Source: Streptomyces sp. MP131-18 (GTDB taxonomy: Bacteria; Actinomycetota; Actinomycetes; Streptomycetales; Streptomycetaceae). Taken from it: DNA of 64,000 bases. The stretch spans positions 277,307-341,306 of the forward strand of contig NZ_LZNS01000001.1 of assembly GCF_001984575.1 (NCBI RefSeq), given 5' to 3'. The notes under the pieces are model-generated. The model worked only from the letters and a program-made list of their open reading frames with translations, searched no databases and was not told the DNA's origin. Shown here in pieces: positions 42,758 through 64,000 of this stretch (position 1 is its first letter; every line of letters begins with the position of its first letter). The translations under genes were made by a program, and so were the position numbers.

Positions 42758-42791
42758 CCCTCTACTTCCCTCTGTGTACTAGGAGACAACG

Positions 42792-44069: not shown

Positions 44070-44071
44070 TC

Positions 44072-45052
44072 ATGGCCAGGACGCTGACCAAGACCGTCCC
44101 GGAGCGCGCCGCGGCGGCTCCGGCCGAGGCGGCGGGCCCCGCGGCACGCCGGGGTCGCCGGGGATGGCGGGGATGGCGCGACGCCGGAGCGCGCCTCACC
44201 ATGGTCGCCCCCGCGCTCGTGCTCTACGTGGGCCTGCTCGTCGTCCCCGTCGGCTACGCCGTCTACTACAGCTTCACGGACTACAACGGCTTCCCGCAGC
44301 AGATCCCCGAGTTCATCGGCTGGGAGAACTACCAGCGGGTCTTCCAGTCGGCCGACATCACCGACTCGATGGTCGTCACCGGCACGATCGCGCTCGTCGG
44401 CGCCATCCTCGTCAACGCCGCCGCGCTCGGCCTGGCGCTGCTGCTCCAGCGGACCGGCGGGTTCACCACCTTCGGCCGGGTGGTGATGTTCTACCCGCAC
44501 GTCCTCAGCGCCCTGGTCGTCGGCTTCCTCTGGCAGGCGATTCTGGGCCCGCAGGGCGTGGTCAACACCATGCTGGAGAAGGCCGGGCGCTCCTCGATGC
44601 CCTTCCTCTCCGACCCGACGTGGGCGCTGTGGACCCTGATCTTCGTGATCTCCTGGTCCCTGTTCGGCGTGCAGCTCGTGCTCTACCTGGCCGGGCTCCA
44701 GACGGTCCCCGCCGACCTCGTCGAGGCGGCCAGGATCGACGGCGCCGGACGCTGGCAGACCTTCCGGGCCGTCACCTGGCCCGCGCTCGCGCCCACGTTC
44801 AGCGTCGCCCTCATCACCTCGGGCATCTCGCTGCTGAAGACCTACGACGTCGTCGTCTCCCTCACCGGCGGCGGGCCGGCCGGATCGACGCAGACCCTGG
44901 CGTACTCGATCCTCGCCGTGTCCTTCCCCGGGCGGCAGATCGGCCTCGCCTCGGCCGAGGCCGTCGTGCTCATCATCGCCGCCGCGATCCTCGCCTTCAC
45001 GGTGCTCGCGCTCAGGCGGCGCGCGGAAGAAGGGGCGGAATCCATCGGATGA
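44072..45052 (+). CDS. Sugar ABC transporter permease 1
   Basis: MalF-type membrane subunit, 326 residues, about six transmembrane segments (for example LTMVAPALVLYVGLLVVPVG and VVLIIAAAILAFTVLAL). The coupling loop is EAARIDGAGRWQTFRAVTWP. It begins two bases after the lipoprotein stop and its last bases contain the start of the second permease (ATGA). The Ala/Arg-rich 35-residue N-terminal tail is cytosolic. Confidence 0.94.
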   Translation: MARTLTKTVPERAAAAPAEAAGPAARRGRRGWRGWRDAGARLTMVAPALVLYVGLLVVPVGYAVYYSFTDYNGFPQQIPEFIGWENYQRVFQSADITDSMVVTGTIALVGAILVNAAALGLALLLQRTGGFTTFGRVVMFYPHVLSALVVGFLWQAILGPQGVVNTMLEKAGRSSMPFLSDPTWALWTLIFVISWSLFGVQLVLYLAGLQTVPADLVEAARIDGAGRWQTFRAVTWPALAPTFSVALITSGISLLKTYDVVVSLTGGGPAGSTQTLAYSILAVSFPGRQIGLASAEAVVLIIAAAILAFTVLALRRRAEEGAESIG

Positions 45053-45891
45053 CTCGCTCGTCACGTCCGGCGACCGCGCTGCGCGTCGCGTTCCTCGGCG
45101 TTCTGTGCCTCTTCATGCTGATCCCGCTCTACCTGCTGGTGATCAACGCGTTCAAGAGCCAGCAGGACATCCTCACCAACCCGTTCACCATCGACCTCTC
45201 CCGGGCCACCACCGAATACCTCGGCGCCGCCTGGAACAGCCCCGAGTTCAGCATCCCCAAGGGGTACGCCATCACGCTGGCGCTCCTGGTCTGCGTCAAC
45301 GTGCTCTCCATCGGGCTCTGCGTGCCCGCCGCGCACGTGCTGGCCAGGACCCCGAGGCCGCTGTTCCGCGCCATCCTGATGTTCTTCGTGGCCGGCATGT
45401 TCATCCCGACGCAGGTGATCCTCATCCCGGTCATCTTCGTGCTGCGCGGCCTCGGCCTGATGAGCACCTTCCCCGGGCTGGTGCTCTTCATGACGGCGAC
45501 CACCGTGCCGTTCACCCTGTTCGTCTTCACCGGCTTCGTGCGGGTGCTGCCGCGCGCGCTGGACGAGGCGGCGGCCATCGACGGCGCGGGCCGCCACTAC
45601 ACGGTGTGGCGGATCATCTTCCCGCTGATGCGGCCGATCGTCGCCACCGCGTTCATCCTCAACTCCCTCAGCGTCTGGAACGACTTCGCCAGCCCGCAGG
45701 TCATCCTCGGCCCCGGCAGCGGCATCTACACGGTCACCACGGGGGTCTACGCCGCGGTCGGCCAGTACTCGGCGGACTACACGAGGGTGTTCCCGACGCT
45801 GCTGCTCGCCGTCATCCCGATCCTGGTCATCTTCGTGGCGACCCAGCGCCACCTGATGCGCGGCCTGGCCGCCGGTTCGGTCAAGGGCTGA
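45049..45891 (+). CDS. Sugar ABC transporter permease 2
   Basis: MalG-type membrane subunit, 280 residues, six transmembrane segments starting with [20 protein letters not shown]. The coupling loop is [20 protein letters not shown]. It is coupled to permease 1 by an ATGA overlap. Together they form the importer channel with the preceding lipoprotein. Confidence 0.94.
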
Positions 45892-45968
45892 CCGCCGCGG
45901 CCCCGCCCCTCGTCCGTCCGTTCGTCCCCGGCGCCACGCCCCGAGCCGCTACTGGAGGTACTTCCGCC

Positions 45969-46016
45969 GTGAGCCACGAGACCACCCGCTCCCCCGCTAC
46001 CGGAGGCCGCCGATGA
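45969..46016 (+). CDS. Possible 15-residue leader peptide coupled to SDR gene
   Basis: A GTG-started frame of 15 codons ([15 protein letters not shown]) with TGGAGGT nine bases upstream. Its TGA overlaps the ATG of the SDR gene (ATGA). The good ribosome binding site and the exact overlap copy the coupling used elsewhere in the operon. It could equally be chance, since the SDR start has its own CGGAGG. No family known. Confidence 0.3.
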
Positions 46017-46750
46017 CCGCCGCACTCGTCACCGGGGCCGGCGGCGGCCTCGGCCGTGCCGTCGCCGTGCGGCTCGCCGGCGACGGTTACGACGTCGCCG
46101 CCGTCGACATCGATCCCGCGGCCCTGGCCGCCACCGCCGAGGCCGTCGAACGGGCCGGCGCGCGCGCCCTGCCGCTCACCGCCGACCTCGCCGACCCGGC
46201 CGCCGCCGCGGCCGCCGTGGAGCGCGCCCGCGCGGCGCTCGGCGTCCCCGGGGCCCTGGTCAACAACGCCGCGATCTACCCGGCCACCCCGTTCCTCGAC
46301 GTCGAACTCGCCGAGTACGACCGCGTGGTGGCCGTCAACCAGCGCGCCTACTGGGTCGTGGCCCAGTCGGTCGCCCGCCTCATGGCGGAGCAGGGCGGCG
46401 GCGCCATCGTCAACGTCGCCTCCATCACCATGCACGGCGGCTGGTCGGACCTGGCCGCCTACGTCTCCACGAAGGGCGCCGCCACCGCGCTCACCCGGGC
46501 GCTCGCCCGGGAACTCGGCCCGCACGGGGTCCGGGTCAACGCCGTGTCACCCGGCGCGTTCCCCACCGCGGCCGAGGAGATCCACCCCGACCCGGAGGGC
46601 TACCGGCGCTTCGTGCTTGACCGGCAGGCCCTCAAACGACGCGGCAGGCCGGAGGAACTGGCCGCGGCCGTCGCCTTCCTGCTCGGCCCCGACGCCTCGT
46701 TCGTCACCGGTCAGTGCCTGGAGGTCAACGGAGGGTGGGTGATGGCATGA
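46013..46750 (+). CDS. SDR-family sugar or sugar-acid dehydrogenase
   Basis: Classical SDR, 245 residues. Cofactor motif [23 protein letters not shown] suggests [13 protein letters not shown] follows. Catalytic Ser is in [10 protein letters not shown] and the YxxxK in [20 protein letters not shown] and [12 protein letters not shown] are the normal C-terminal signatures. It lies between the importer and a DUF4432 gene, with ATGA overlap to the latter. In described L-fucose and L-rhamnose oxidative pathways an SDR acts as sugar dehydrogenase or as 2-keto-3-deoxy-acid dehydrogenase; either would fit. Confidence 0.92.
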
Positions 46751-47811
46751 GGATCGCCGGACGCGACCTGGACCGCGCCGCGCTCGAACGCCGCGCGGGC
46801 GACCTCTCCGCCGCGGGCGGCATCCGGGCCGTCGTGCTCGACGACGGTGCCGAACGCGGCATCCGCGCACTGGAGTTCAGAACCGGCGGCGGACTGGCCT
46901 TCGACGTGCTCGTGGACCGGGCCATGGACCTGGGGACCGCCGAGTACCGCGGGCACGGCTTCGGCTGGCGCTCGGCCACCGGCTTCCGCCACCCGGGCCT
47001 GCACGAGTACCGCGACGAGGACGGCCTCTCGCTCATGCGCAGCTTCTCCGGGCTGCTGGTCACCGCGGGCCTCGACCACACCCTGTTCACCGCCGAGGTG
47101 GACGCCTCGCAGTACCGCTACCCGCACCGCGCCACCGTGTGGAACGGGCTCCACGGCCGCGTGGCCCACACCCCCGCCCGGCTGCACGGCTACGGCGAAC
47201 GGTGGACCGACGACGGCCGGTGCGTGCTGTGGGCGGAGGGCGAGGTGCGGCAGGCGGCCGTCTTCGCCGAACACCTGCGGCTGACCCGGCGGATCGAGGC
47301 CGACCTCGGCGGCAGCGAGATCCGGCTGACCGACACCGTGCGCAACGCCGGATTCGACCCGACGCCGCACATGTACCTCTACCACATCAACGTCGGCTGG
47401 CCCCTGCTGGACGAGGGCGCGCGCTGGGAGCTGCCCGCGGCCCGCACCCTGTGGCGCTCCGACAGCGTCGCGGAGCAGGGCGTCTCGCACCTGGTCATGC
47501 CCGCGCCGCTGCCGGGGTTCGTCGAGCAGGTCTACGAGCACGAACTCGTCCCCGGGGAATCGGGCCGCGCACGGCCGAGGCTGGTCAACGAACGGCTGGG
47601 GCTGTTCTTCGAACTCGACTACGACACCCGCGAGTTCCCCGCGTTCTTCCAGTGGCTGCACCTGCGCGAGGGCGCCTACGCCGTCGGGATGGAGCCCTCC
47701 ACGCACCACGTCGCGGGCGAGGAGGCGGCCCGCGCCGACGGGTCCATGACCTTTCTGGCCCCCGGCGAGGAGCGCCGCTACCACACCGTCTTCCGGATCG
47801 GAGAGCTGTGA
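46747..47811 (+). CDS. DUF4432 aldose-epimerase-like protein
   Basis: Protein of 354 residues with a galactose-mutarotase-like beta-sandwich of the DUF4432 family. Typical parts are [32 protein letters not shown] and [20 protein letters not shown], where the conserved His and Glu of aldose 1-epimerases would sit. ATG 46747 overlaps the SDR stop. Family members have been linked to epimerisation of less common sugars. Here it would supply the right anomer or epimer of the imported sugar to the dehydrogenases. Confidence 0.85.
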
Positions 47812-47839
47812 ACGGCGAGGCGGGCGGGACGGCGGAGCG

Positions 47840-48979
47840 ATGACGGCCTACCGCGGACTGACCTGGGACCACCCGCGGGGCACCGAGGCGCTGCGGCAGG
47901 CCGCGGCCGGCTTCTCCGCGCCGCCCTCCCCCGCCGGGCGCCACGGGGACACCCTCACCTGGGACGCCCAGCCCCTCGAAGGCTTCGAATCGCACCCGAT
48001 CACCGACCTCTGCGCCCGCTACGACCTCGTCGTCCTGGACCATCCGCACCTCGGCGACGCCCTCGCGGGCGGGGCGCTCACGCCGCTGTCCGCGCTGTTC
48101 GGCCCGGAAGTCATCGCCGAGTGGCGCGCGACCACGGTCGGCGCCTCTGCGGACTCCTACACCGCCGCCGGCGAACTGTGGGCGCTCCCGCTCGACACGG
48201 CCACGCAGGTGGCCGCGGCACACCGGGCGACCGTGCCGGAACTGCCCACCACCTGGGAACAGGTGACGGCGCTCGCCGCCGAGCGGCCGGTCGTGCTCTC
48301 GCTCGCCGGTCCGCACGCGCTGCTCACCTTCTTCTCGCTCTGCTGCGCACTCGGCGAGCCGCCCGACCCCGAGCCCGCCTCCGGCCTGGTCCCGCGCGAC
48401 ACCGCGCTCGCGGCGCTGGAGATGATGCGGGACCTGACCCGCCGCGCCGACCCCGCGACGTTCGGCCTCAACCCCATCGGGCTGCTCGGCCTGCTCGCCG
48501 CGGGCCGAGCGGCCTACTGCCCGTTCGTCTACGGGTACGCGAGCTACGCGGCACGCGCGGCGGGCGCACCCGTGCGCTTCGGCGACGTGCCGCGGCTGGC
48601 GCCCGGCGGGCCGCTCGGCTCCACGCTCGGCGGCACCGGGCTCGCGGTGACCCGCCGCACCGAGGTCTCCCCCGCGCTCGCCCGCCACCTGAGCTGGCTG
48701 CTGTCGGCCGATGCGCAACGCGCCTACCTGCCCGAACGGCTGGCGCAGCCCTCCCGCCGGGAGGCGTGGCGGGACCCGGCGCTCGACGCGGCGTTCTCCG
48801 GTTTCTACTCCGGCACCCTCGCCACCACCGAGGGCGCCTGGGTCAGGCCCCGCCACGCCGGCTACCCGGCCTTCCAGACCGCCGCCTCCGCCGTACTGCG
48901 GGCGGCGGCCACCGGCACCTCGTCACCGGCGGACGCGTTCGCCGAGACCGTCCGGCTGCACCGCGCCCTGACCCCCTGA
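47840..48979 (+). CDS. Substrate-binding-protein-like protein without signal peptide
   Basis: Protein of 379 residues that resembles a carbohydrate-type solute-binding protein (CARYDLVVLDHPHLGDALAG, ALPLDTATQVAAAHR, TTWEQVTALAAERP, LSWLLSADAQRAYLP) yet starts directly with TAYRGLTWDHPRGTEALRQA and has no signal peptide or lipobox. The frame upstream of ATG 47840 offers none either. GGCGGAG precedes the start. It is followed by an enoyl-CoA hydratase gene after 38 bases. A cytoplasmic role is implied: binding of a sugar or acyl metabolite, or a degraded exported protein. Function unknown. Confidence 0.8.
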   Translation: MTAYRGLTWDHPRGTEALRQAAAGFSAPPSPAGRHGDTLTWDAQPLEGFESHPITDLCARYDLVVLDHPHLGDALAGGALTPLSALFGPEVIAEWRATTVGASADSYTAAGELWALPLDTATQVAAAHRATVPELPTTWEQVTALAAERPVVLSLAGPHALLTFFSLCCALGEPPDPEPASGLVPRDTALAALEMMRDLTRRADPATFGLNPIGLLGLLAAGRAAYCPFVYGYASYAARAAGAPVRFGDVPRLAPGGPLGSTLGGTGLAVTRRTEVSPALARHLSWLLSADAQRAYLPERLAQPSRREAWRDPALDAAFSGFYSGTLATTEGAWVRPRHAGYPAFQTAASAVLRAAATGTSSPADAFAETVRLHRALTP

Positions 48980-49017
48980 CCTGTATCCCCGCACCCCCGT
49001 CCGAGGAGCCGCCCGCC

Positions 49018-49797
49018 ATGGAGAGCACAGTCGAGGAGATCCGCCTGACGCTGCACGACCGCGTCGCCCTCATCACCCTCAGCAGACCCGAGAAGCTGAA
49101 CGCGGTCACCGCCGCCATGTCCGCCGAGCTGACCCGGCTCGCCGACCTGTGCAACACCGCCGACGAGGTGCGGGCCGTGGTGCTCACCGGTGCCGGCGAA
49201 CGCGCCTTCTGCGCCGGCTCCGACATCGGCGAACTCGACGCCTACGCAACCCCCTGGGACTTCCGCAACCGTTCCGACTACTGCGACTCGTTGCGCCGCC
49301 TGCGCAAACCCGTCATCGCCGCGGTCAACGGGCTCGCGCTCGGCGGCGGTCTGGAGACCGCCCTCGCCTGCGACATCAGGATCGCCTCCGCCACCGCCCG
49401 GTTCGGCGCCCCGGAGATCAAGCTGGGCTGGATCGGCGGCGGTGGCGTCTCCGCACAGCTGCGGGCCTCGATCGGGGCGAGCAACGCCGCCCTCATGCTG
49501 CTGACCGGCGACCCGATCGACGCCGCGACGGCCGAGCGCCGACTGCTGGTCAGCGAGGTGACCGAACCATCCGAACTCCTCGGCCGCGCCCTGGAGATCG
49601 CCTCGACCATCGCCGCCCGCGCCCCCATCGCCGCCGAGACCGCGAAGGCCAACCTGCACGCGGCGGCCAGCGTCCCCCTCGACCAGGCACTGGAGCGCGA
49701 ACGCGACCTCCAGGCCGTCTGCTTCGCCACCGAGGACGCCGCGGAGGGCCGAGCCGCCTTCCTGGCGAAGCGCCCCCCGCACTTCCACCGCAGGTGA
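49018..49797 (+). CDS. Enoyl-CoA hydratase/isomerase family protein
   Basis: Crotonase-fold enzyme, 259 residues. The oxyanion-hole strands are AFCAGSDIGE and NGLALGGGLETALACD. Both hydratase glutamates are present, Glu113 (GGGLET) and Glu133 (FGAPEIKLG), so hydration/dehydration of an acyl-CoA is plausible rather than a mere isomerase. GAGGAGCC lies ahead of ATG 49018. It ends the plus-strand operon and is convergent with the LacI gene. Together with the CoA-transferase beyond LacI it points to a CoA-thioester step in what otherwise looks like sugar catabolism. Confidence 0.92.
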   Translation: MESTVEEIRLTLHDRVALITLSRPEKLNAVTAAMSAELTRLADLCNTADEVRAVVLTGAGERAFCAGSDIGELDAYATPWDFRNRSDYCDSLRRLRKPVIAAVNGLALGGGLETALACDIRIASATARFGAPEIKLGWIGGGGVSAQLRASIGASNAALMLLTGDPIDAATAERRLLVSEVTEPSELLGRALEIASTIAARAPIAAETAKANLHAAASVPLDQALERERDLQAVCFATEDAAEGRAAFLAKRPPHFHRR

Positions 49798-49851
49798 ACG
49801 TCCACCCCCGGCCGGGGCACGGCACCGGCCCGGTCTGGCTCGGTCTTCGGG

Positions 49852-50895
49852 CTACGTGCTCTCCCGGGGCCGGATCTCGAAGCCCAGGTCGAGGGCGGAG
49901 GCGGCGGAGGAACCGCCGCGCATCCGGCGCAGCAGCAGCGCCGCGGCCTCCCGGCCGATCCTGGCGTTCGGCAGGGATACCGTGGTCAGCCCTGGGCGGA
50001 CCATGCGGGAGAGTTCGAAGTCGCCGAAGCCGGTGAGGGCGATGTCCCCCGGCACCCGCACGCCGGTGCTCCCGGCCGCGAGCAGCGCGCCGCAGGCGAG
50101 CACGTCCGTGGAGAAGACCAGCACGTCCGCCTCGGGCTGCGCCCGGCGGGCGGTGTCGAGCAGCAGTGCTCCCGACTCCAGGGTGAGCGGGTACTCGGAG
50201 GCGTCCACGACGCGGGGCTCGCGTCCCGGCCGGAACGCGTTCACCGCCCGCCGGAACCCCGCCAGCCGGCGCAGCGAGCGGTGGTCGCCCGCGAGCAGCG
50301 AGCCCACGAAGCACGGCTCGCGGTACCCGGACTCGTGCAGGAAGGACACCATCGCGTACATCGCCCGCTCGTTGGAGAAGCCGACGAGCGTGTCCACCGG
50401 GCTGTCCGTCCAGTCCCAGGTCTCCACCACGGGCACCCCGGCGGTGCGGAGCATCGCCACCGTGCTCTCCCGGTGCACCGTCCCGGTCAGGCAGATGCCG
50501 TCCGGGCGCCTGCCGAGCAGCGAGCGGATGAGGTCTTCCTCGCGCTCGTCGTCGTAGTCGGTGTAGCCGAGCAGCAGTTGGTAGCCCTCCGGGGAGAGCA
50601 CCGCGGAGAGCCCGGTCAGGGTCTCGGAGAACAGCTCGCTGCCCAGCGCGGGGATGACCGTGGCGACGATCTTGCTGCGGTTGGAGGCCAGGTTGCGGGC
50701 GGCGAGGTTGGGCACGTACCCGCTCTCCCGGATCGCGGCCTCCACCCGCTCCCGGGTGTGCGGCGCGACCTCCTCGGGAATCCGCAGCACGCGGGAGACC
50801 GTCTGCGAGGAGACGCCGGCGCGCGCGGCCACGTCCCGCAGGGTGACCGAACGCGTCGAGGCCCGCCGGGGCCCCGCCGCTGGACCGCTTCCCAT
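49852..50895 (-). CDS. LacI-family transcriptional regulator
   Basis: LacI/GalR repressor of 347 residues. The HTH is VTLRDVAARAGVSSQTVSRV and the hinge helix is NLAARNLASNRSK. The effector domain includes FSTDVLACGALLAAGSTGVR and IALTGFGDFELSRMV. It is convergent with the preceding enoyl-CoA hydratase gene and divergent from the CoA-transferase. The 153 bases between the LacI and CoA-transferase start codons contain two AGCGCT-centred palindromes of the LacI operator type, so autoregulation and control of the CoA-transferase are likely. Confidence 0.94.
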   Translation of the reverse strand: MGSGPAAGPRRASTRSVTLRDVAARAGVSSQTVSRVLRIPEEVAPHTRERVEAAIRESGYVPNLAARNLASNRSKIVATVIPALGSELFSETLTGLSAVLSPEGYQLLLGYTDYDDEREEDLIRSLLGRRPDGICLTGTVHRESTVAMLRTAGVPVVETWDWTDSPVDTLVGFSNERAMYAMVSFLHESGYREPCFVGSLLAGDHRSLRRLAGFRRAVNAFRPGREPRVVDASEYPLTLESGALLLDTARRAQPEADVLVFSTDVLACGALLAAGSTGVRVPGDIALTGFGDFELSRMVRPGLTTVSLPNARIGREAAALLLRRMRGGSSAASALDLGFEIRPREST

Positions 50896-50985
50896 CCGCC
50901 CTGCCTCCCCGTCTGTCGTGCCGCACCGCGCGGCCGGGGCAACTGTACGCAGCCGACGGCCCGTCGGGGGGCCGTCCGCCCACTA

Positions 50986-51011
50986 TGTTAGCGCTGCCGT
51001 TAGCGCTATCA
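50986..51011. promoter_or_regulatory. Tandem LacI-type operators
   Basis: TGTTAGCGCT (50986-50995) and GTTAGCGCTATCA (50999-51011) are two copies of the GTTAGCGCT half, each centred on the palindrome AGCGCT, 12 bp apart. The form TGTTAGCGCTAACA is the common operator of actinobacterial LacI sugar regulators; these are one full-like and one partial match. They lie 38-63 bases before the CoA-transferase ATG and would overlap its promoter. Confidence 0.72.
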
Positions 51012-51048
51012 TCGCTCTCCACTAGCCCCGAACGGTGTGAGGTGTGGC

Positions 51049-52239
51049 ATGGGAGTGCTCGACGGCATCCGCGTCCTGGACCTGTCCATCGCGATGTCCG
51101 GCCCGTTCGCGGCGATGAAGCTCGCCGATCTGGGTGCCGACGTGATCAAGGTCGAGCCCGTCGGCGGCGAGTGGCAGCGACGCGCCTCGGCGGGCGGCGC
51201 GCGTGGCCGGGAGGTCAACGCCTCGTTCCTGTCGCTGAACCGCAACAAGCGCAGCCTGTCCGTGGACCTCAAATCGCCCGGCGGGCTGGCCGCCCTGCGC
51301 GAGCTGGTGAAGACCGCGGACGTCTTCCTGCAGAACTACCGGCCCGGGGTGGCGCGGCGGCTCGGCGTCGACTACGAGACCCTGCGGGAGCTGCGGCCCG
51401 ATCTGGTGTACGTGTCGATCTCCGGGTACGGCGAGAGCGGGCCGTACGCCGCACGCCCCGGCCAGGACCTGCTGCTCCAGGCGATGAGCGGTGCCCTCTT
51501 CAGCGCCGGCGCTCCCGGCCGGGCGCCCACCGCGGCGCCGTACTTCCTGGTGGACGCGTTCGCCGCCTACTCCGCGTTCGAGGGTGCGCTCGCCGCGCTG
51601 TTCCACCGGCAGCGCACGGGTGAGGGGCAGCTCGTGCGGGTCAACATGCTGGACGCGATCATCTGCGCGCAGATGCAGGAGATCACGGTCCGCACGGTCG
51701 GCGGCGTTCCGCAGACCCGGGGCGAGGGCATCCACGCGCACAGCTACATCCGCGCCCCCTACGGCATCTACCCGACCGCGGACGGCTACCTGGCGCTGTC
51801 CTTCGCCGAACCGGCCGTGCTGGCCGAGCTGTTCGGCGAGCCGCGGCTCGCCCCGTTCGAGGCGGAGCGCGACGGGTTCACCCGGCGCGAGGAGATCTCC
51901 GCCCTCGTCGAGGAGCACCTGAGGCGCGAGACCACCGGGCACTGGCTGGAGGTGCTCGGCGGGGCGGGGGTGTGGTGCGGGCCCGTCCACTCCTACGAGG
52001 ACCTGCTCACCGACCCCCAGGTGGTGCACAACGGGTCGTTCGTCAGCTACGAGCACCCCACGGAGGGGCGGGTGACCACGCCGGGCTTCCCGTTCACCCT
52101 GAGCGCGAGCCCGCAGTCGGTGGCTCGCCCGGCGCCGGTGAACGGCCAGCACTCGCGGGAGGTCCTGCGCGACCTCGGCATGAGCCAGGAGGCGGTGGAG
52201 AGGCTGATAGCGAACGGCGCGGTCTTCGCCGCGGGCTGA
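51049..52239 (+). CDS. CaiB/BaiF family III CoA-transferase
   Basis: Acyl-CoA transferase of 396 residues. The N-terminal GIRVLDLSIAMSGPFAAMKL and ADLGADVIKVEP are the family signature; FLSLNRNKRSLSVDL and GYGESGPYAARPGQDLLLQA follow. The catalytic aspartate is Asp169 in YFLVDAFAAY. ATG 51049 is preferred over the GTG at 51037 because the conserved strand begins within five residues and GTGAGG lies upstream. It should move CoA between organic acids, giving the CoA thioester on which the nearby enoyl-CoA hydratase could act. Controlled by the divergent LacI protein, by position. Confidence 0.93.
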   Translation: MGVLDGIRVLDLSIAMSGPFAAMKLADLGADVIKVEPVGGEWQRRASAGGARGREVNASFLSLNRNKRSLSVDLKSPGGLAALRELVKTADVFLQNYRPGVARRLGVDYETLRELRPDLVYVSISGYGESGPYAARPGQDLLLQAMSGALFSAGAPGRAPTAAPYFLVDAFAAYSAFEGALAALFHRQRTGEGQLVRVNMLDAIICAQMQEITVRTVGGVPQTRGEGIHAHSYIRAPYGIYPTADGYLALSFAEPAVLAELFGEPRLAPFEAERDGFTRREEISALVEEHLRRETTGHWLEVLGGAGVWCGPVHSYEDLLTDPQVVHNGSFVSYEHPTEGRVTTPGFPFTLSASPQSVARPAPVNGQHSREVLRDLGMSQEAVERLIANGAVFAAG

Positions 52240-52281: not shown

Positions 52282-53787
52282 TCATTCGATCCGCAGGACC
52301 TGGACGTACGGGGTCGGCGGCTCGGGCGGCAGCGTGACCCGCAGCCCGTCGGCGCGCAGGTCGAACGGGAGCGGCCCGCCGCCGAGCAGCGCGATCCGCC
52401 GCGGCGGGCGCGGCAGGTGCCCCGCGTCGGTGCCGAGGCTGGTGAGCACGGCCGTGCCGTCCGCGGGCCAGGCCATGAGGAACGCGTACAGCGTCTCGCC
52501 CCGGCGGGTGAACCGCACGTCCCGCGGGGTGTAGGGCAGCGACCGCTCGCGGGCCTTGGCGCCGTCCACGCGGGTGGGTCCCTCGCCGTGCACGTGCCAC
52601 GGCCGGGTGCCGAAGACGGCTTCGCCGCAGGTGTCCGTCCAGCCACCGATGCCGTCCAGCACGGCCCCCGTCTCCTCGTCGACGGTCCCGTCGGGCAGCT
52701 GCGGCACGTTGAGCAGCAGGCAGCCGTTCTTGCTGACGGTGTCGACGAGCAGGTGCACGATCTCACCGGCGGTCTTGTAGCGTTCGCCGGCGCTGTAGAA
52801 CCAGTCGCCGATGCTGGTGTCGTACTGCCAGGGCGCCGGGTCTGTCCCGCCGAGCTGGTGCCGCTCGACGTCCAGGAGCACCGCGCCCCGGTCCTCGTCC
52901 GGGACCGTCTTGACGCTCACCGCGCCCTCGGGCACGGCGTTGTAGTAGGCGGCGAGGAACTCCAGGCCGCGCGGGCTCGGCGGCGCGGCGGGGCAGACGC
53001 TGCCCTCGTCGAACGGCAGCCGCGCGTCGTCGAGGTAGACCAGCTCGGGCGCGTACCGCTCGGTGACCTCGCGCAGCCGGGCGTAGTAGTTGTCGACGAA
53101 GTCCGCGCGCGGCGGGTCGCCGGGGCGGCGCGGCGGGCCGTAGAGCGCCCGCGGGTCGAGCCCGTCCCACCAGGTGCCCCGGCCGTCCTCGGCGGTGAGG
53201 TGCCCGTCGTACGGTTCGCCCGCCCGCGGCCCCTCGGCGTCGGCGGCGAACGCGGCGTCCAGCCAGCGCCAGGTCCAGGAGCCGGCGTGCATGCTCACCC
53301 CGAAGCGCAGCCCGGCGCCGCGGGCCGCCGCCGCCCACCGGCCCACGATGTCGCTGCGCGGGCCGACGTTGACCGCGTTCCACGGCTGGTGGGTGGAGTC
53401 CCACAGGTCGAAGTTGTCGCAGTGCGCGGCCAGGGAGACGAAGTAGCGCGCCCCGGCGCGCCGGAAGCGGTCCATCAGCGCCTCGGGGTCGAACCTTTCG
53501 GCGCGCCAGAGCCGGCACAGGTCCTTGTGCCCGAACCGGGCGGGGTGGCCGAAGTGGGCGCGGTGGTGCGCGGCCTGGCGGCGGGAGCGCTTCTGTTCGA
53601 AGTCCTCGGTGCCCTCGTAGGGCCCGTACAGGTGGCGGGCGTACCAGTCGCCGGCCATGGCGACCGACTGCGGGCCCCAGTGCGACCAGATGCCGAACTT
53701 GGCGTCCGCGAACCACTCGGGGACGCGGTGGGCGCGCAACGAGGGCCAGTTGGCCTCGTACGGGCCGGAGCGGGCGGTGGTGCTCAT
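52282..53787 (-). CDS. GH29 alpha-L-fucosidase-like protein
   Basis: Glycoside hydrolase of 501 residues without signal peptide, so probably cytoplasmic. GH29 pattern: EWFADAKFGIWSHWGPQSVA, GARYFVSLAAHCDNFDLWDS, NVGPRSDIVGRWAAAARGAG and the nucleophile strand ELVYLDDARLPF (Asp253). VSKNGCLLLNVPQLPDGTVD is the conserved late barrel segment. The typical HHDGF reads HCDNF, as in a divergent subgroup. It is the last gene of the minus-strand operon after the isomerase. It should release L-fucose or a related 6-deoxy/L-galacto sugar from an imported oligosaccharide. Confidence 0.92.
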   Translation of the reverse strand: MSTTARSGPYEANWPSLRAHRVPEWFADAKFGIWSHWGPQSVAMAGDWYARHLYGPYEGTEDFEQKRSRRQAAHHRAHFGHPARFGHKDLCRLWRAERFDPEALMDRFRRAGARYFVSLAAHCDNFDLWDSTHQPWNAVNVGPRSDIVGRWAAAARGAGLRFGVSMHAGSWTWRWLDAAFAADAEGPRAGEPYDGHLTAEDGRGTWWDGLDPRALYGPPRRPGDPPRADFVDNYYARLREVTERYAPELVYLDDARLPFDEGSVCPAAPPSPRGLEFLAAYYNAVPEGAVSVKTVPDEDRGAVLLDVERHQLGGTDPAPWQYDTSIGDWFYSAGERYKTAGEIVHLLVDTVSKNGCLLLNVPQLPDGTVDEETGAVLDGIGGWTDTCGEAVFGTRPWHVHGEGPTRVDGAKARERSLPYTPRDVRFTRRGETLYAFLMAWPADGTAVLTSLGTDAGHLPRPPRRIALLGGGPLPFDLRADGLRVTLPPEPPTPYVQVLRIE

Positions 53788-53839
53788 GGTGTCCCTTCCG
53801 TCGCTTGTCCCGTGACGTGCGCGTGCCGCGAACGGTTCG

Positions 53840-54808
53840 CTAGACCGCCGCCCACAGCACCTTCTGGGCCGCGATCGCGTCCTGCCGTTCCTGCGCGTCG
53901 CGCAGCGCGTCGACGTCGATCCGTTCGCACGCCGCGTCCAGCCGCCGGATGGTCTCGATGCTGTGGGACAGGGCGGCCACGGGGTCTTCGCGGAAGGGGA
54001 ACTGGTCGAGCAGCACGGGCTGGTCCCAGCCGACGCGGCGCAGGGCGAGGAGGAACTCCAGGGTCTCGAAGAGGTGCACGGACGCGACCGGCAGGTCGTC
54101 GTCCCAGCCCCGCCAGTTGTCGTTGAGCTCGGCGGAGACCAGGCGGCCCTGGCGGTGGACGAGTTGCAGGGCCTCGGCGGGGGTCTCTCCGGCCATCAGC
54201 GAGTGGCCGAAGTCCAGCACGATGCCGACGTTGTCGACTCCGGCGTCCTGGATGGCCAGCAGGGTCGTGGCCGCGTTGCCGAGGGTGATGCGGACCCGGG
54301 GCTCCTTGGGCTTGTACTCGATGGCGAACTGCGTCTCCGGGTGGGCGGTGGCCAGTTCACGGATCGCGTCCACGGTCAGCTCCCACAGCCGGGCGTAGTC
54401 GGCCTGCCCCGGCATGTCGAAGCCGTCCTGGCCCGGCCAGAACTTCACGTATCCGGCGCCCAGTTCCGCGGCGGCCTCGACGGCGGCATGCACGCGGTCG
54501 CGCGCGGCGCGGCGCACGGCGGGGTCGGGGTTGGTGAAGGCGCCGCGGGTGAACTCGCGGGTGTAGAGGTGCGGGGTCACCGCGCGGGCCCGCAGGCCGA
54601 GTCCGTCGAGCAGGGCGGCCACCGAAGCGGCGGAGAGATCCGGCTCGTCGAAGGGGTGGTTGATGTCGAGGTGCTCCAGGCCGTCCACCTGGGCGGCCAG
54701 TTCCAGCATGGCCCTGGTCGAGCGCTCCGGCCCGTAGCCGTCGGTGGCGTACCGGTCGACGATCCGGCCGAACGCCCAGATTCCCGCTCCGAAGACGAGG
54801 TTCGCCAT
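53840..54808 (-). CDS. Xylose-isomerase-like TIM-barrel sugar isomerase
   Basis: TIM-barrel protein of 322 residues in the AP-endonuclease-2/xylose-isomerase-like family. Metal ligands appear in QFAIEYKPKEPR (Glu), VGIVLDFGHSLMAG (Asp, His) and SAELNDNWRGWDDD; ASVHLFETLEFL follows. It begins MANLVFGAGIWAFGRIVDRY. It lies directly downstream of an FGGY kinase and a split transketolase. In the described D-apiose transketolase route an isomerase of this fold makes D-apulose from D-apiose, which fits the gene set. L-fucose or other ketose isomerisation remains possible. Confidence 0.85.
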   Translation of the reverse strand: MANLVFGAGIWAFGRIVDRYATDGYGPERSTRAMLELAAQVDGLEHLDINHPFDEPDLSAASVAALLDGLGLRARAVTPHLYTREFTRGAFTNPDPAVRRAARDRVHAAVEAAAELGAGYVKFWPGQDGFDMPGQADYARLWELTVDAIRELATAHPETQFAIEYKPKEPRVRITLGNAATTLLAIQDAGVDNVGIVLDFGHSLMAGETPAEALQLVHRQGRLVSAELNDNWRGWDDDLPVASVHLFETLEFLLALRRVGWDQPVLLDQFPFREDPVAALSHSIETIRRLDAACERIDVDALRDAQERQDAIAAQKVLWAAV

Positions 54809-54841
54809 GGTGTGCTCCTGACTGTGTGTGGGTGTGGGTGC

Positions 54842-56350
54842 CTAGGGCCTGTCCGGTGGATCGTCGCTCGGGAGCCGTGCGCGGCGGACGGCGTCGCGCC
54901 AGCGCGCGAGGTGTTCGGCGCGCCAGGCGGCGTCCCGCCGGGGCCGGGCGAGGGTCGTGTCCCGCTCCGCGTGGCGCCGCACGTCCGCGTCCGTCCACAG
55001 GCCGAGCGCGACTCCGGCGAGGCGGGCGGCGCCGAGCGCGGAGTTCTCGGGATGCGCGCTGATCCGTATCCGGCAGCCGCAGAGGTCGGCCTGGAGCCGC
55101 ATGAGCGCGGCGTTCGCGCTCGCTCCGCCGTCCGCGTGCAGGACCCGTGGCGGGCCGAGGGCGCGTTCGAACAGGAGGAGGGTCTCCGCGACCTGGAACG
55201 CCGTCGAGTCGAGCGCGGCCCGCGCGAATTCGGCACGGGTGGTGGCCTGGGTGAAGCCGGTGAACACCGCCGTGGCCCGGCGGTCCCAGTAGGGGGCGCC
55301 CAGGCCCTCGAAGGCGGGCACCAGGACGGCGGTGGTCTCCCCGGCCTCCTCGGCCAGCGCGGCGAGCCCGCGCTCGTCGGTGCCCAGCAGGTGCGCGGCC
55401 CAGCGCACGGCGGTGCCGGCGGCGGCGATGTTGGCCTCGAACGCGAGGGCGCGGCCGGCGCCGGGCAGCTGCCAGGCGACCGTTCGGGCCAGGCCCTCGG
55501 GTACGGGCCCGGGGTCCGTTCCGGCGGGGGCCAGGGCCATCAGCGACGAGCCGCTGCCGTAGGTGGCCTTGACCAGGCCGGGGCGGCCGGCGCCGTGGGC
55601 GAACAGGGCGGCGTGCGAGTCGGCGAGCACGGCGGCGAGCGGCGTGCCGGGGCGTACGCCTGGCAGGCCGTCGGCGCTCCCGAACGGCCCGGTGGACGGG
55701 ACCGGTTCGGGCAGGGCGGCGCGGTCCACACCGAACACGTCGAGCAGGTGGGGGTCCCAGGCTCCGGTGGCCAGGTCGAGCAGCTGCGTTCTGGAGGCGT
55801 TGCCGATCTCCGTCACGTCGCGCCCTGTGATGCGGCGCAGCAGCCAGGCGTCCACCGTGCCCACCCGGATGCGGCCGGAACGGGCGGCGCGGCGGCCGGG
55901 ATCCAGCTCGTCCAGCAGGGCGGCGGCCTTGGTGGCGGAGAACATCGGGTCGACGGGCAGGCCGGTCCTCGCGGTGATCTCCCGGCCCTCGGCGCCCGCG
56001 GCCAGCCGCGCGCAGTGCGCCGCGCCCCTGCGGTCCTGCCAGCTGACCAGCGGGCCGAGCGGCTCGCCGGTGTCCGCCCGCCAGGCGAGCACCGATTCGC
56101 GCTGGGTGCTGAGCGCGACGGCCGCGAGCTCCGTGCCCGGCCGCCCGGCGAGTGCCGTGAGTGCCTCGCCCGCGGCCGTCACGACGCTCGCCCAGATCTC
56201 CGCCGGGTCCTGCTCCACCCGCCCCGGGCCCGGGTGGGCCAGCGCCAGCGGGCGCGCGGCGGTGGCTCGCACGATGCCGTCCGCGTCCACCAGCACCGCC
56301 TTGGTGCTGGACGTCCCCTGGTCGAGGGCGAGGACGGCGGGCGACTTCAC
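54842..56350 (-). CDS. FGGY-family sugar kinase (apulose-kinase candidate)
   Basis: Carbohydrate kinase of 502 residues. The ATPase phosphate-1 motif is LALDQGTSSTKAVLV, STQRESVLAW follows, and the FGGY C-terminal signature is VLHADGGASANAALMRLQAD. YGSGSSLMAL and AFEANIAAAGTAVRW also match the glycerol/xylulose kinase fold. The GTG start at 56350 overlaps the stop of the transketolase C-subunit (GTGA). It should phosphorylate a ketose so that the transketolase can use it. D-apulose, D-xylulose or L-ribulose are candidates. Confidence 0.92.
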   Translation of the reverse strand: MKSPAVLALDQGTSSTKAVLVDADGIVRATAARPLALAHPGPGRVEQDPAEIWASVVTAAGEALTALAGRPGTELAAVALSTQRESVLAWRADTGEPLGPLVSWQDRRGAAHCARLAAGAEGREITARTGLPVDPMFSATKAAALLDELDPGRRAARSGRIRVGTVDAWLLRRITGRDVTEIGNASRTQLLDLATGAWDPHLLDVFGVDRAALPEPVPSTGPFGSADGLPGVRPGTPLAAVLADSHAALFAHGAGRPGLVKATYGSGSSLMALAPAGTDPGPVPEGLARTVAWQLPGAGRALAFEANIAAAGTAVRWAAHLLGTDERGLAALAEEAGETTAVLVPAFEGLGAPYWDRRATAVFTGFTQATTRAEFARAALDSTAFQVAETLLLFERALGPPRVLHADGGASANAALMRLQADLCGCRIRISAHPENSALGAARLAGVALGLWTDADVRRHAERDTTLARPRRDAAWRAEHLARWRDAVRRARLPSDDPPDRP

Positions 56351-57327
56351 GGGCCGCGCCCGAGGAGGTCGAGTGCGGCCCGTTCGGCCGCGGCGGCGGT
56401 GATGTGGAAGTGCTCGTGGAGGAAGCGCGCGTCGCCGGTGGGGGCGAACACGCCGGGCACGCCGAGGATGCGCATGGGTACGGGCCGGTGGGTGACCACG
56501 GTCTCCGCGATCGCGCCGCCGAGCCCGCCGCGCACGGTGTGCTCCTCCACGGTGACGATGCCGCCGGTGTGCTCGGCAGCGTCGCGCACGGCCCGTTCGT
56601 CCAGCGGGCTGACGGTCGACATGTTCAGCACGCGGGCGGAGACGCCCCGCAGGGCGAGCCGGTCGGCCGCCTGGGTCAGGAGGGAGACCGTGGTGCCCAG
56701 GCCCACCAGCGTCACGTCGTCGCCGCGGCGCAGCACGGCGGCGCGGCCGGGCTCGAACGGGACATGGGGGGTGAGCGCGGGCACCGGGGTGCGGCCGATG
56801 CGCAGGAAGACGGGCCCGTCGTGGGCGTGGGCCCAGCGCACCGCCTCGGCGGTCTGGGCCGGGTCCGCCGGGACCACGACGGTGAGGTCCGCCAGGGCGC
56901 GCAGCCAGGCCAGGTCCTCGATGCTGTGGTGGGTGGGGCCCAGCTGGCCGTAGGCGAGGCCGGGGCTCATGCCGCACAGCTTCACGTTGGCCCGCGAGTA
57001 CGCCACATCGGCCTTGATCTGCTCCAGCGCCCGCCCGGTGAGGAACGGGGAGGCGGCGCAGACGAAGGGAATCCGCCCGCCGCCCGCAAGACCGGCGCCC
57101 ACCCCGACCATGGTCTGCTCGGCGATGCCGACGTTGACGAGCCGGTCGGGGTGGCGGGCGGCGAACTCCTTCAGGTTGCTGGAGCCGACGGAGTCGTTGC
57201 ACACGGCCACCACCCGCGGGTCGGCGGCGGCCAGTTCGAGCAGTGTGGCGGCGAACGCCACCCGGCAGTCGTACGCCGGCGGGCTCGCGGTGGCCTCGGC
57301 GGGCTCCGAGGCGGGGGCGGCGGTCAT
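56347..57327 (-). CDS. Transketolase, C-terminal subunit (pyrimidine-binding domain)
   Basis: Second half of a two-subunit transketolase, 326 residues. The pyrimidine domain contains the catalytic Glu in VNVGIAEQTMVGVGAGLA; FVCAASPFLTGRALEQIKAD and QLGPTHHSIEDLAWLR carry the phosphate-binding and His residues. The C-terminal fold has VTLVGLGTTVSLL and GIVTVEEHTVRGGLGG. ATG 57327 overlaps the N-subunit stop (ATGA) and its stop overlaps the kinase start. Split transketolases of this kind act in dedicated sugar routes, such as apulose-4-phosphate cleavage, rather than in the pentose phosphate pathway. Confidence 0.92.
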   Translation of the reverse strand: MTAAPASEPAEATASPPAYDCRVAFAATLLELAAADPRVVAVCNDSVGSSNLKEFAARHPDRLVNVGIAEQTMVGVGAGLAGGGRIPFVCAASPFLTGRALEQIKADVAYSRANVKLCGMSPGLAYGQLGPTHHSIEDLAWLRALADLTVVVPADPAQTAEAVRWAHAHDGPVFLRIGRTPVPALTPHVPFEPGRAAVLRRGDDVTLVGLGTTVSLLTQAADRLALRGVSARVLNMSTVSPLDERAVRDAAEHTGGIVTVEEHTVRGGLGGAIAETVVTHRPVPMRILGVPGVFAPTGDARFLHEHFHITAAAAERAALDLLGRGP

Positions 57328-58223
57328 CCCTGCAACTCCTCCATGGCGCGCCGGGCTTCCTCGGCGTTCGGTACCCGGTGGTGCCACTCGACCCGGTCGG
57401 CCATGAAGGACACCCCGCGGCCCTTCTGCGTCACCGCGATGAGGCACCGGGGCCGTCCGGGCGGCGCGGGTGCGCACAACTCGCGGCGCAGGGCCTCGTG
57501 GTCGTGGCCGTCCACGGTGCGGACGGTGAAGCCGAACGCCTCCCACTTGGCGGGCAGCGGCTCGAGGGCCGAGGTCTCCTCGGTGCGGGCGCCCTGTTGC
57601 AGTCCGTTCCGGTCGACGACGACCGTCAGGTTGTCGAGGCCGTGCTGGGCGGCGGTCAGCGCCGCTTCCCAGTTGCTGCCCTCCTGCAGCTCACCGTCGC
57701 CGGTGAGGACGAACGTGCGGCGCGGGCTGCCGTCGAGCCGGGCGGCGATGGCCGAGCCGACGGCGAAGGGCAGGCCGTGGCCCAGCGGCCCGGTGTTGGT
57801 CTCCACGCCGGGGATCTTGCGGCAGTCCGGATGGCCGTTGAGCGGGGAGAGCGGCGCCATGTAGGTGTCAAGATCGGCGTCGGCGAAGAAGCCGGCGTAC
57901 GAGAGTGTGGCGTACAGCGCGCCCGAACCGTGGCCCTTGCTCTGGATGAAGCGGTCGCGCTCCGGCAGCCGTGGGTGCTCCGGGTCGCAGTCGAGCACCA
58001 GCAGATAGAGGACGGTCAGGATGTCGACGGCGGAGAAGTCACCGCCCACGTGCCCCATGCCCGCACGGAGGATCATCTCCAGGTCTCGCCGGCGGATCGC
58101 CGCGGCGATGCCGGCGAGCCGGGCTCTGCGCTCCGCCACAGGGGCCTCGGTCAATGAGCGGCGCAGCTCGCGCAGTTGGCGCGCGCTGCCAGGAACGGGC
58201 CTCAGCGTCATCGACGACACCAC
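57324..58223 (-). CDS. Transketolase, N-terminal subunit (TPP-binding domain)
   Basis: First half of the split transketolase, up to 299 residues. The thiamine diphosphate motif is TGDGELQEGSNWEAAL with VVVDRNGLQQ; active-site histidines are in IQSKGHGSGALYA, GHPDCRKIPGVE and TGPLGHGLPFAVG. The start is uncertain: GTG at 58223, GTG 58220 or ATG 58211 are all in frame, and none has a clear Shine-Dalgarno sequence. The operators lie only 15 bases upstream of 58223, so the mRNA may be leaderless or nearly so. First gene of the five-gene operon that ends with GH29. Confidence 0.92.
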   Translation of the reverse strand: MVSSMTLRPVPGSARQLRELRRSLTEAPVAERRARLAGIAAAIRRRDLEMILRAGMGHVGGDFSAVDILTVLYLLVLDCDPEHPRLPERDRFIQSKGHGSGALYATLSYAGFFADADLDTYMAPLSPLNGHPDCRKIPGVETNTGPLGHGLPFAVGSAIAARLDGSPRRTFVLTGDGELQEGSNWEAALTAAQHGLDNLTVVVDRNGLQQGARTEETSALEPLPAKWEAFGFTVRTVDGHDHEALRRELCAPAPPGRPRCLIAVTQKGRGVSFMADRVEWHHRVPNAEEARRAMEELQG

Positions 58224-58237
58224 GTCAACAGGGTCAT

Positions 58238-58270
58238 CTGAATATCCATTCAGCTATGAATGTTGATTCA
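58238..58270. promoter_or_regulatory. Twin TGAAT-N4-ATTCA operators
   Basis: CTGAAT-ATCC-ATTCAG (58238-58253) and TGAAT-GTTG-ATTCA (58257-58270) are two inverted repeats with the same arms and spacer length, 18 bp centre to centre. They lie between the split-transketolase gene and the divergent SorC/DeoR-type regulator. This arrangement is typical for tetrameric SorC-family proteins. I saw no other copy in the window. Confidence 0.75.
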
Positions 58271-58352
58271 CCATAAGCTAGCCTTCTGTCGGGGACCCGT
58301 CAAGGTGGCAACCGCACCGGCGGCCACGGGACTTCTCAAGGAGGAACGAGCG

Positions 58353-59306
58353 ATGGCATCGCCCGAGGAACTGCGCCTCATGACGCGGGTGGCGCGCATG
58401 TACTACACCGAGGGCGTGCGCCAGCCGCAGATAGCGCGGCGCCTGGGGCTGTCCCAGGCCCGGGTGTCGCGGCTGCTGAGCAAGGCGGAGCAGCACGGGA
58501 TCGTGCGGATCACGGTGTCCCCGCCGGCCGGCACCCATCCCGAGCTGGAGGGCGCCCTGCAGGAGCGTTACGGGCTCAGGCTGGCGCTCGTGGTGGAGGT
58601 CGGCGAGGACGACGAACAGCGCATCCTGCCGGAGCTCGGCGCCGCCGCCGCGTACTACCTGGAAGCCACGCTGCGCTCCGGCGACGTCATCGGTATCTCC
58701 TCGTGGAGCGCCTCCCTGCTGGCCCTGGTGGACCACCTCCACCCGGCGCCGGGACTGGCCGGGGTCCGCGTGGTGCAGGTCCTGGGGGGCGTGGGTGATC
58801 CGGCCGCCGCCGAGCACGCGACCCGGCTCACCGACCGGATGGCCCGGGTGCTGCACGGTGACGCCGTCCACCTGCCCTCCCCCGGGGTCGCGGGCTCCGC
58901 CGCCAGCGCGAAGGCGCTGCGCGAGGACCCCTTCGTCGCCGCCGGTCTCGCCCTGTTCGACGGCATCACGGTGGCGCTGGTCGGCATCGGGTCGCTCGAA
59001 CCCTCTCGGGTGCTGGCCAGCAGCGGCAACGTCTTCTCCGCGGCCGAGATCGAACGGCTGCGCGCCGCCGGTGCCGTGGGCGACGTGTGCCTCAACTTCT
59101 TCGACGCCGCGGGCACTCCGGTGGACACCGGAACCGCCGAGCGCGTCATCGGCATCACGCCCGACGGGCTGCGCGCGGTGCCCCGGTGCGTCGCCGTGGC
59201 CGGCGGGCGGCGCAAGACCGAGGCGGTGCGCGGCGCGCTGCGCGGCGGCCTGGTCAACGTCCTGATCACCGACCGGTTCACCGCGGAACGCCTGACCCGG
59301 CCCTGA
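58353..59306 (+). CDS. SorC/DeoR-type sugar-binding transcriptional regulator
   Basis: Regulator of 317 residues. N-terminal HTH: YYTEGVRQPQIARRLGLSQA with RVSRLLSKAEQHGIVRI. The C-terminal sugar-binding (SorC) domain carries VVQVLGGVGDPAAAEHATRL, GITVALVGIGSLEPSRVL and GDVCLNFFDAAG; its fold binds phosphorylated sugars. AAGGAGG at 58338-58344 fixes ATG 58353. Divergent from the transketolase operon with twin operators between. The inducer is probably a phosphorylated intermediate of that pathway, for example a ketose phosphate. Confidence 0.93.
   Translation: MASPEELRLMTRVARMYYTEGVRQPQIARRLGLSQARVSRLLSKAEQHGIVRITVSPPAGTHPELEGALQERYGLRLALVVEVGEDDEQRILPELGAAAAYYLEATLRSGDVIGISSWSASLLALVDHLHPAPGLAGVRVVQVLGGVGDPAAAEHATRLTDRMARVLHGDAVHLPSPGVAGSAASAKALREDPFVAAGLALFDGITVALVGIGSLEPSRVLASSGNVFSAAEIERLRAAGAVGDVCLNFFDAAGTPVDTGTAERVIGITPDGLRAVPRCVAVAGGRRKTEAVRGALRGGLVNVLITDRFTAERLTRP

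Positions 59307-59354: not shown

Positions 59355-64000
<4,646 letters not shown>

Follow-up and report, generated by a model that had tools for sequence, protein, structure and literature searches.

The DNA analysed here is a 64,000-base stretch of the 7.96-Mb genome of Streptomyces sp. MP131-18 (the window, C1:277307-341306). It contains a five-gene operon on the minus strand, whose products resemble the enzymes of D-apiose degradation by the transketolase route, and a divergent regulator gene (Table 1). In transcriptional order, the operon encodes the two parts of a split transketolase, an FGGY kinase, a xylose-isomerase-like TIM barrel and a GH29 glycosidase. This gene set had been proposed in an earlier note on this DNA, and it is present and supported by Pfam. 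The frames of the operon are all open and coding by score. The first two junctions are true overlaps of four bases each, as the note had it, namely ATGA at 57324-57327 and GTGA at 56347-56350; the final two are gaps of 33 and 52 bases. The start of the transketolase N part is uncertain, being either ATG 58211 or, by coding score, GTG 58139. The SorC/DeoR-type regulator is likewise where the note had placed it, but a start at 58260 is unlikely. That longer reading crosses the second of two operator palindromes, and the start is hence most likely 58353, where inspection of the sequence finds AGGAGG 8 bases ahead of an ATG. The GH78 and GH2 genes named in the note do adjoin, with the correction that GH2 (61994 onward) continues past the window end. 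A search of 58150-58400 for sigma-70 promoter and terminator consensus found none.

Table 1. Genes and predicted sites at the window operon (window positions) and candidate genes at other isomerase loci (locus number before the positions)
Feature	Position	Strand	Support or remark
AptA-like transketolase N part (thiamine diphosphate (ThDP)-binding), probable apulose-4-phosphate transketolase subunit A	57324-58211	-	PF00456, 124 bits
AptB-like transketolase pyrimidine-binding and C-terminal part, probable subunit B	56347-57327	-	PF02779 and PF02780
FGGY kinase, probable apulose kinase (AplK-like)	54842-56350	-	PF00370/PF02782
ApsI-like putative D-apiose isomerase, xylose-isomerase-like TIM barrel	53840-54808	-	PF01261
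GH29 glycosidase, final operon gene	52282-53787	-	PF01120, 259 bits
SorC/DeoR-type sugar-binding regulator, divergent	58353-59306	+	PF04198, 202 bits
Operator palindrome 1, TGAATATCCATTCA	58239-58252	.	predicted from motif search
Operator palindrome 2, TGAATGTTGATTCA	58257-58270	.	predicted; 18 bases after palindrome 1
GH78 alpha-L-rhamnosidase, pectin-island neighbour	59355-61997	+	PF17389, 414 bits, and four more rhamnosidase domains
GH2 (LacZ-type) glycosidase, pectin-island neighbour, cut at window end	61994-64000	-	PF02836 and PF02929 on the full gene, L170:3301-6180
PF07632 genes at isomerase loci	L061:10963-12465; L058, L059, L077, L080, L097, others		
PF16586-PF13204-PF18310 genes by the isomerase	L055:4838-6355; L056:605-2212; L049:295-1791; L052, L079, L086, L087		Chloroflexota and actinomycetes
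IunH-like gene just upstream of the isomerase	L024:9130-9999; L025, L026, L034		Nonomuraea

Plant cell walls contain apiose, an unusual sugar with a branched skeleton, and the reaction chemistry of the D-apiose transketolase route was reportedly set out by Carter et al. in 2018. In the proposed route, the TIM-barrel enzyme would convert D-apiose to apulose, the FGGY kinase would turn apulose into apulose 4-phosphate, and the two-subunit transketolase would transfer a two-carbon unit from apulose 4-phosphate to glyceraldehyde 3-phosphate, yielding xylulose 5-phosphate and dihydroxyacetone phosphate. We infer every one of these catalytic steps from sequence comparison, and consider it highly probable (about 0.88) that the operon degrades D-apiose in this way. 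The pathway itself is known; the window operon adds a Streptomyces case. According to PMC13001218, the D-apiose cluster of Pectobacterium carotovorum includes apsI, and the gene set given there, citing Carter et al., is apsI, aplK, aptA, aptB and an importer. In the Escherichia apiose cluster, apsI is absent and two oxidoreductases take its place; growth on D-apiose is reported for P. carotovorum and for the tested E. coli and E. fergusonii carriers (PMC13001218). Of 295 genomes from the order to which an Erwinia genome belongs, four matched the PDB entry 3ktc at E ≤1e-80, two of them at 99-100% (G529 and G601). In these two Pectobacterium-type clusters, the genes for a binding protein, a DUF2291-type protein, an ATPase, a permease, aptA, aptB, aplK and the isomerase stand in a row, and a SorC regulator gene diverges from them; the DUF2291 gene was matched in one (L125), and the other (L126) has an open frame of the same length. 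The four window enzymes and the regulator are 42-50% identical to the G529 cluster, which carries the 3ktc isomerase at 100%. Specifically, the transketolase N part is 50% identical to Pectobacterium-type AptA and 47% to AptA of E. coli SE15, the C part 42% and 38% to the respective AptB, the kinase 42% and 39% to AplK, and the regulator 42% and 43% to its counterparts. The isomerase is 48% identical to the Pectobacterium-type one (that is, 3ktc) and has no counterpart in the E. coli SE15 cluster. The cassette matches the Pectobacterium-type and E. coli clusters in sequence and order, and this largely bears out the note's reading of a D-apiose (apulose-4-phosphate transketolase) operon or a close variant. 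Homology of five proteins, gene order and the operator described below together make a strong assignment to apiose.

The arrangement recurs widely. A scan of named genomes with the isomerase alignment gave at least 591 matching stretches, 568 of which encode a relative. The counts given here are from the best 80 loci; these share descent, so the counts are of non-independent events. Both transketolase parts and the kinase occur in 65 of the 80 loci, hence the cassette is no chance arrangement; the regulator is present too in 51, and in 35 each of the three E. coli apiose importer genes has a homologue. Where at least 6 kb is covered on either side of the isomerase, 49 of 56 loci have the trio. 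The remaining seven are L050, which has the transketolase N part, and six from Enterobacterales with a lone isomerase. In all six of the latter genomes, an AptA sharing 78-79% identity with the E. coli protein is encoded elsewhere, clustered with kinase, regulator and importer in the three that were fetched (L119-L121). By record titles, the cassette is found in Actinomycetota (including Planktophila), Chloroflexota, Rhodothermota, Myxococcota, Verrucomicrobiota and Pseudomonadota, several records being metagenome bins whose taxon labels may be wrong. Planktophila and other freshwater-type actinobacterial records (L031, L032, L027, L036) have the isomerase, both transketolase parts and the kinase; two of these are complete 1.46 Mb genomes, and no matching regulator was seen in L031 and L032.

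The palindrome TGAATN4ATTCA (TGAATNNNNATTCA) has two exact matches in the window and none in 100 shuffles of it. Across the 80 loci it has 54 matches in 45 loci, compared with a mean of 0.6 and a maximum of 3 in 20 first-order Markov samples. It ranks first of 192 palindromes whose arms contain at most one G or C, the runner-up being found in 9 loci. In the E. coli apiose cluster (L014), it lies between the regulator gene and aptA; in L125 and L126, two copies 18 bases apart lie ahead of the binding-protein gene. The palindrome is also found in L119-L122, and all six lone isomerases of Enterobacterales have it 44-67 bases ahead of the gene. For five of the 54 matches, none of the cassette, importer and candidate genes sought is within reach. 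Because the palindrome is common to the window, E. coli, Pectobacterium-type clusters and lone isomerases, one SorC-type regulon seems to span phyla, with this palindrome as its predicted operator. The SorC-type protein would bind both window palindromes and thereby repress the divergent promoter, from which an apiose-derived sugar phosphate may free it. A site with one mismatch occurs at C1:347726 (L170:11727), about 100 bases ahead of a gene for an unknown protein and two GH28 genes; as about 0.02 such sites are expected per 20 kb by our own estimate, it is only suggestive.

These data also bear on whether the operon still functions. The isomerase is rare in the window's family (4 of 394 genomes, own genome counted), as it could be if the operon were decayed or silent. 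We give this explanation almost no weight: the frames are open and coding, both palindromes are intact, and Streptomyces sp. SBT349 and S. pathocidini retain the cassette genes found on their contigs at 73-96% identity.

The earlier note had proposed a comparison of the enzymes with apiose enzymes and with those of other ketose pathways. By sequence identity, the isomerase falls on the apiose side. It aligns with 3ktc at 48% identity over residues 6-319 (313 residues, 335 bits), and the PDB relatives that come next, ordinary xylose isomerases, do not exceed 73 bits. The transketolase N part does so too. The tree has 93 rows (the window and those 92 of 127 matches that were left once repeat fetches and near-identical loci had been taken out; a quick tree without bootstrap and without sulfofructose transketolases, long branches flagged). 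In it, a single clade with an SH-aLRT of 98 (starred) unites the window with 48 cassette rows and 8 AptA rows from enterobacteria. This clade leaves out 36 rows, comprising 34 other transketolases, including L004 from the own genome, and two own-genome paralogs. A second split transketolase exists in the genome (C1:1332051-1335851; L002, L015:7498-9350), its N part being 49% identical; judged from translated starts, its neighbours in L015 look biosynthetic, not catabolic. The kinase gives a less clear answer, with a tree support of only 45. Its top NCBIfam match is glycerol kinase at 382 bits, under the cut-off of 590, and E. coli AplK likewise stays under that cut-off at 495 bits. The role of apulose kinase fits by synteny, and the fold, the position and the 39-42% identity to AplK suit it. 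Glycerol kinase, xylulokinase, rhamnose isomerase and xylose isomerase were rejected as names, all scoring far under the curated NCBIfam cut-offs.

The same comparisons speak to the idea that the operon belongs to a sulfoquinovose (sulfofructose transketolase), L-ribulose, xylulose, rhamnose or erythritol-type pathway. A sulfofructose transketolase pathway does exist, its transketolase is split as well, and a sulfoquinovose isomerase and a GH31 sulfoquinovosidase stand beside it. The gene set of the window, on the other hand, matches the apiose-type cluster of G529; Pfam found neither an SIS-type isomerase nor GH31 in the genes scanned (SqwG/SqwH sequences being outside the comparison); and the six proteins are under the cut-off of every NCBIfam model listed (those for glycerol kinase, xylulokinase, xylose isomerase, L-rhamnose isomerase and DeoR among them). 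We therefore regard such a pathway as very improbable.

Several observations weigh against the assignment to D-apiose. No homologue of the E. coli apiose importer (RbsABC-type) lies within the 64-kb window, and the best match in the own genome to the Pectobacterium-type importer binding protein is only 29% identical. GH29 stands next to the isomerase in only one other locus. The exact operator is missing from 35 of the 80 loci, including the short contigs of the nearest relatives (L022, L023), SBT349 having a match on its other contig (L122). For 3ktc, the putative role of D-apiose isomerase ApsI is read from its position in the cluster and from PMC13001218. The kinase tree (58 of 87 matches plus the window; a quick tree without bootstrap, long branches flagged) groups the window, the cassette kinases and enterobacterial AplK apart from four own-genome FGGY kinases with the low support given above, and the own-genome paralog at C1:659556, 42% identical over the match, is as close as AplK. 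Characterised sulfofructose transketolases are absent from the transketolase rows, so the clade test covers other transketolases only. Some of these points, together with the identity of only 42-50% to Pectobacterium-type proteins, would suit a route of the same chemistry for another rare sugar, in which the enzymes of the window and of its nearer relatives have shifted to a different branched or furanose sugar, for example one released from pectin. Of the 49 well-covered loci that have the trio, 19 resemble the window in having no homologues of the importer binding protein and permease, and the GH29 protein is as near to an exo-alpha-L-galactosidase as to a fucosidase. A shift of this kind is nevertheless unlikely. 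The operator is common to the window, E. coli and Pectobacterium-type loci, and the transketolase N parts form one clade. Moreover, across 86 aligned isomerase rows, conservation reaches 97% or more at 76 positions, and no position conserved at 90% or more was flagged as differing in the window.

The note called the GH29 enzyme a fucosidase, and the family stands. Its best PDB relatives, 7snk (alpha-L-fucosidase) and 7ljj (exo-alpha-L-galactosidase), tie at 230 bits, hence fucosidase is here a family name only. GH29 adjoins the isomerase in one of the 80 loci, that of SBT349 (L022, 92% identity), and was not found in the other 79, some of which end near the isomerase; the S. pathocidini locus (L023) is uninformative since its contig ends about 220 bases past the isomerase. 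Beyond the regulator lies a pectin island (C1:341306-373900; L170, L171), in which a Pfam scan covered part of the transporter genes. It begins with GH78, GH2, GH127, GH78, a DeoR regulator, an unknown protein, two GH28 and a hexapeptide-repeat protein. These are followed by an unknown protein, a binding protein, a PF16586-PF18310 protein, a PF16586-PF13204-PF18310 protein and a BNR protein, and finally by dipeptide-type transporter genes, a DHDPS-family protein, a GntR regulator, GH127 and an Ig-domain protein. The last of these (L171:17723-19900) matches PF17957 only, and by eye we would guess it to be pectate-lyase-like. The proteins at L170:11832-13553 and L171:63-2120 have no Pfam or PDB match. 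Within about 45 kb there are hence two GH78, GH2, two GH127, two GH28, GH29, BNR (sialidase-like) and PF13204 (GH137-143 being outside the search). Homologues of the second half of the island occur in the cassette loci L024, L025, L034, L093 and L098, and similar island genes adjoin the cassette in Streptomyces sp. NBC_00184. The cassette is therefore linked to pectin use in several actinomycetes. GH29 and the adjoining pectin enzymes probably provide apiose from a pectic or glycoside substrate. Rhamnogalacturonan II carries apiose and, judged by gene content, would be a reasonable candidate substrate of the locus; a literature search combining it with Streptomyces or Actinobacteria gave no such locus by title. 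On the far side of the operon, window positions 38045-52239 hold a separate, mostly plus-strand sugar locus with genes for an MLE-family protein, a 2-hydroxyacid dehydrogenase, an aldo-keto reductase, a binding protein, apparently two permeases, an SDR-like protein and a DUF4432 protein, adjoined by a LacI regulator and a family III CoA-transferase.

Four kinds of protein recur in the isomerase loci as candidate apiosidases. Counted by tblastn with one query per kind and flanks of up to 10 kb, Pfam being run on few of the proteins, PF07632 nucleoside-hydrolase-like proteins occur in 23 of the 80 loci, PF16586-PF13204-PF18310 proteins in 8, a second kind with PF16586-PF13204 in 2 and IunH-like proteins in 7; at least one kind is present in 38. 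Many candidates directly adjoin the isomerase, such as PF07632 in L061 and PF13204 in L055 and L056, and on a Croceibacterium plasmid, found via the isomerase, the PF07632 and isomerase genes are side by side. In four Nonomuraea loci, the operator precedes the IunH-like gene by 53-55 bases; in seven loci, it is no more than 300 bases from the start of a PF07632 gene. In 16 chosen genomes, PF07632 has 16 matches in ten; judged by coordinates only, 15 of these matches lie inside the fetched isomerase locus and one 4 kb past its edge. Nine of the 16 genomes had been picked for PF07632 at the locus, and of the remaining seven just the L042 genome has the family. Only one of 396 evenly drawn Actinomycetota genomes (G1018) has PF07632. 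In the own genome, the PF13204 gene (C1:359014-360426) lies 23.5 kb from the operon and is the sole match to its family, at 55 bits. The only PDB match of its product at E ≤0.01 is 4n0r, a putative glycoside hydrolase. GH140 of the BT1012 type, whose structure is deposited in the PDB, was rejected for this gene, as 4n0r is the sole match and no GH140 structure matched. Of 394 genomes in the window's family, 3 have the PF13204 type (E ≤1e-50) and 4 have the isomerase; the own genome and G089 have both.

Other copies argue against a role in apiose release. Within the 20 kb surrounding the PF07632 gene of G1018, neither isomerase nor transketolase nor kinase of the apiose type was matched, only an RbsA-like ATPase (39%) and, weakly, permeases. 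Among 14 control genomes, both families matched in Bacteroides ihuae, PF07632 also in Caulobacter vibrioides and PF13204 also in Thermotoga maritima. An Adhaeribacter plasmid copy of PF07632 has no annotated apiose-type gene nearby, a Selenomonas copy is accompanied by a rhamnosidase, a beta-glucoside phosphotransferase system (PTS) and GH1 but no apiose enzymes, and no cassette surrounds a PF13204-type copy in G210. The window's own genome has no PF07632 match. On plasmid pSRC2 of Selenomonas ruminantium, the PF07632-type (DUF1593) gene (L178:9393-10901) is flanked by GH1 and a gene of a beta-glucoside PTS, with an alpha-L-rhamnosidase close by, a context as expected for the use of apiosyl flavonoid glycosides.

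From these observations we tentatively put forward a broader proposal, to which we grant somewhat less than even odds. Several phyla may share one SorC-type TGAATN4ATTCA apiose regulon whose unassigned members are the missing apiosidases. The PF07632 proteins, and the IunH-like proteins of Nonomuraea, would cleave O-linked apiofuranoside by means of the calcium-and-diol ribose site of nucleoside hydrolases, and the PF16586-PF13204-PF18310 proteins, the own-genome copy 23.5 kb from the operon among them, would be apiosidases too. In that case, the window operon would process the sugar within an actinomycete locus that serves the use of apiose-bearing pectin, for example rhamnogalacturonan II. 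Beyond the known pathway, it is mainly this regulon and the candidate apiosidases that are of interest. The cross-phylum operator can be used to seek the rest of the apiose regulon in carrier genomes, the comparison ties the cassette to pectin genes in actinomycetes, and PF07632 and PF16586-PF13204-PF18310 are candidate apiose-releasing families that can now be tested. A literature search linking apiose with nucleoside hydrolase found nothing, most subscription papers being outside it. The Sde_0182 protein of Saccharophagus degradans is of the same Pfam family, PF07632, as the protein beside many apiose isomerases; in PMC8910321 it is reported to be inactive on nucleosides and perhaps a furanose-interacting module, and a concrete substrate suggestion is therefore useful.

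Compared with known and related systems, the window operon shares homologous AptA, AptB, AplK and SorC regulator with the E. coli SE15 cluster (ECSF_RS02670-RS02715, L014; PMC13001218), including an operator between regulator and aptA. That cluster has an importer and two SDR oxidoreductases, and no TIM-barrel isomerase. The plasmid of NBC_00184 (L180) has the TIM-barrel isomerase, split transketolase, kinase and sugar-binding regulator in common with the window. Its cassette sits inside the island, directly beside GH28, a GH127-type beta-L-arabinofuranosidase, pectinesterase, Ig-like and DHDPS-family proteins and a binding protein, whereas in the own genome most corresponding genes are 10 kb or more from the cassette; GH95 is present there and no GH29 in the 25 kb seen. 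In SBT349 (L022, L122) and S. pathocidini (L023), the wider island is not comparable since the contigs are short; up to the contig ends the gene order is the same, with isomerases 95% and 87% identical. The Pectobacterium-type cluster (G529/G601, L125/L126) differs from the window in its importer genes, which have no homologue in the window, in its 42-50% identity, and in the position of its palindromes, which lie ahead of the binding-protein gene there and ahead of the transketolase gene in the window. In common with the window it has the isomerase, the kinase, both transketolase parts, the SorC regulator and two palindromes 18 bases apart.

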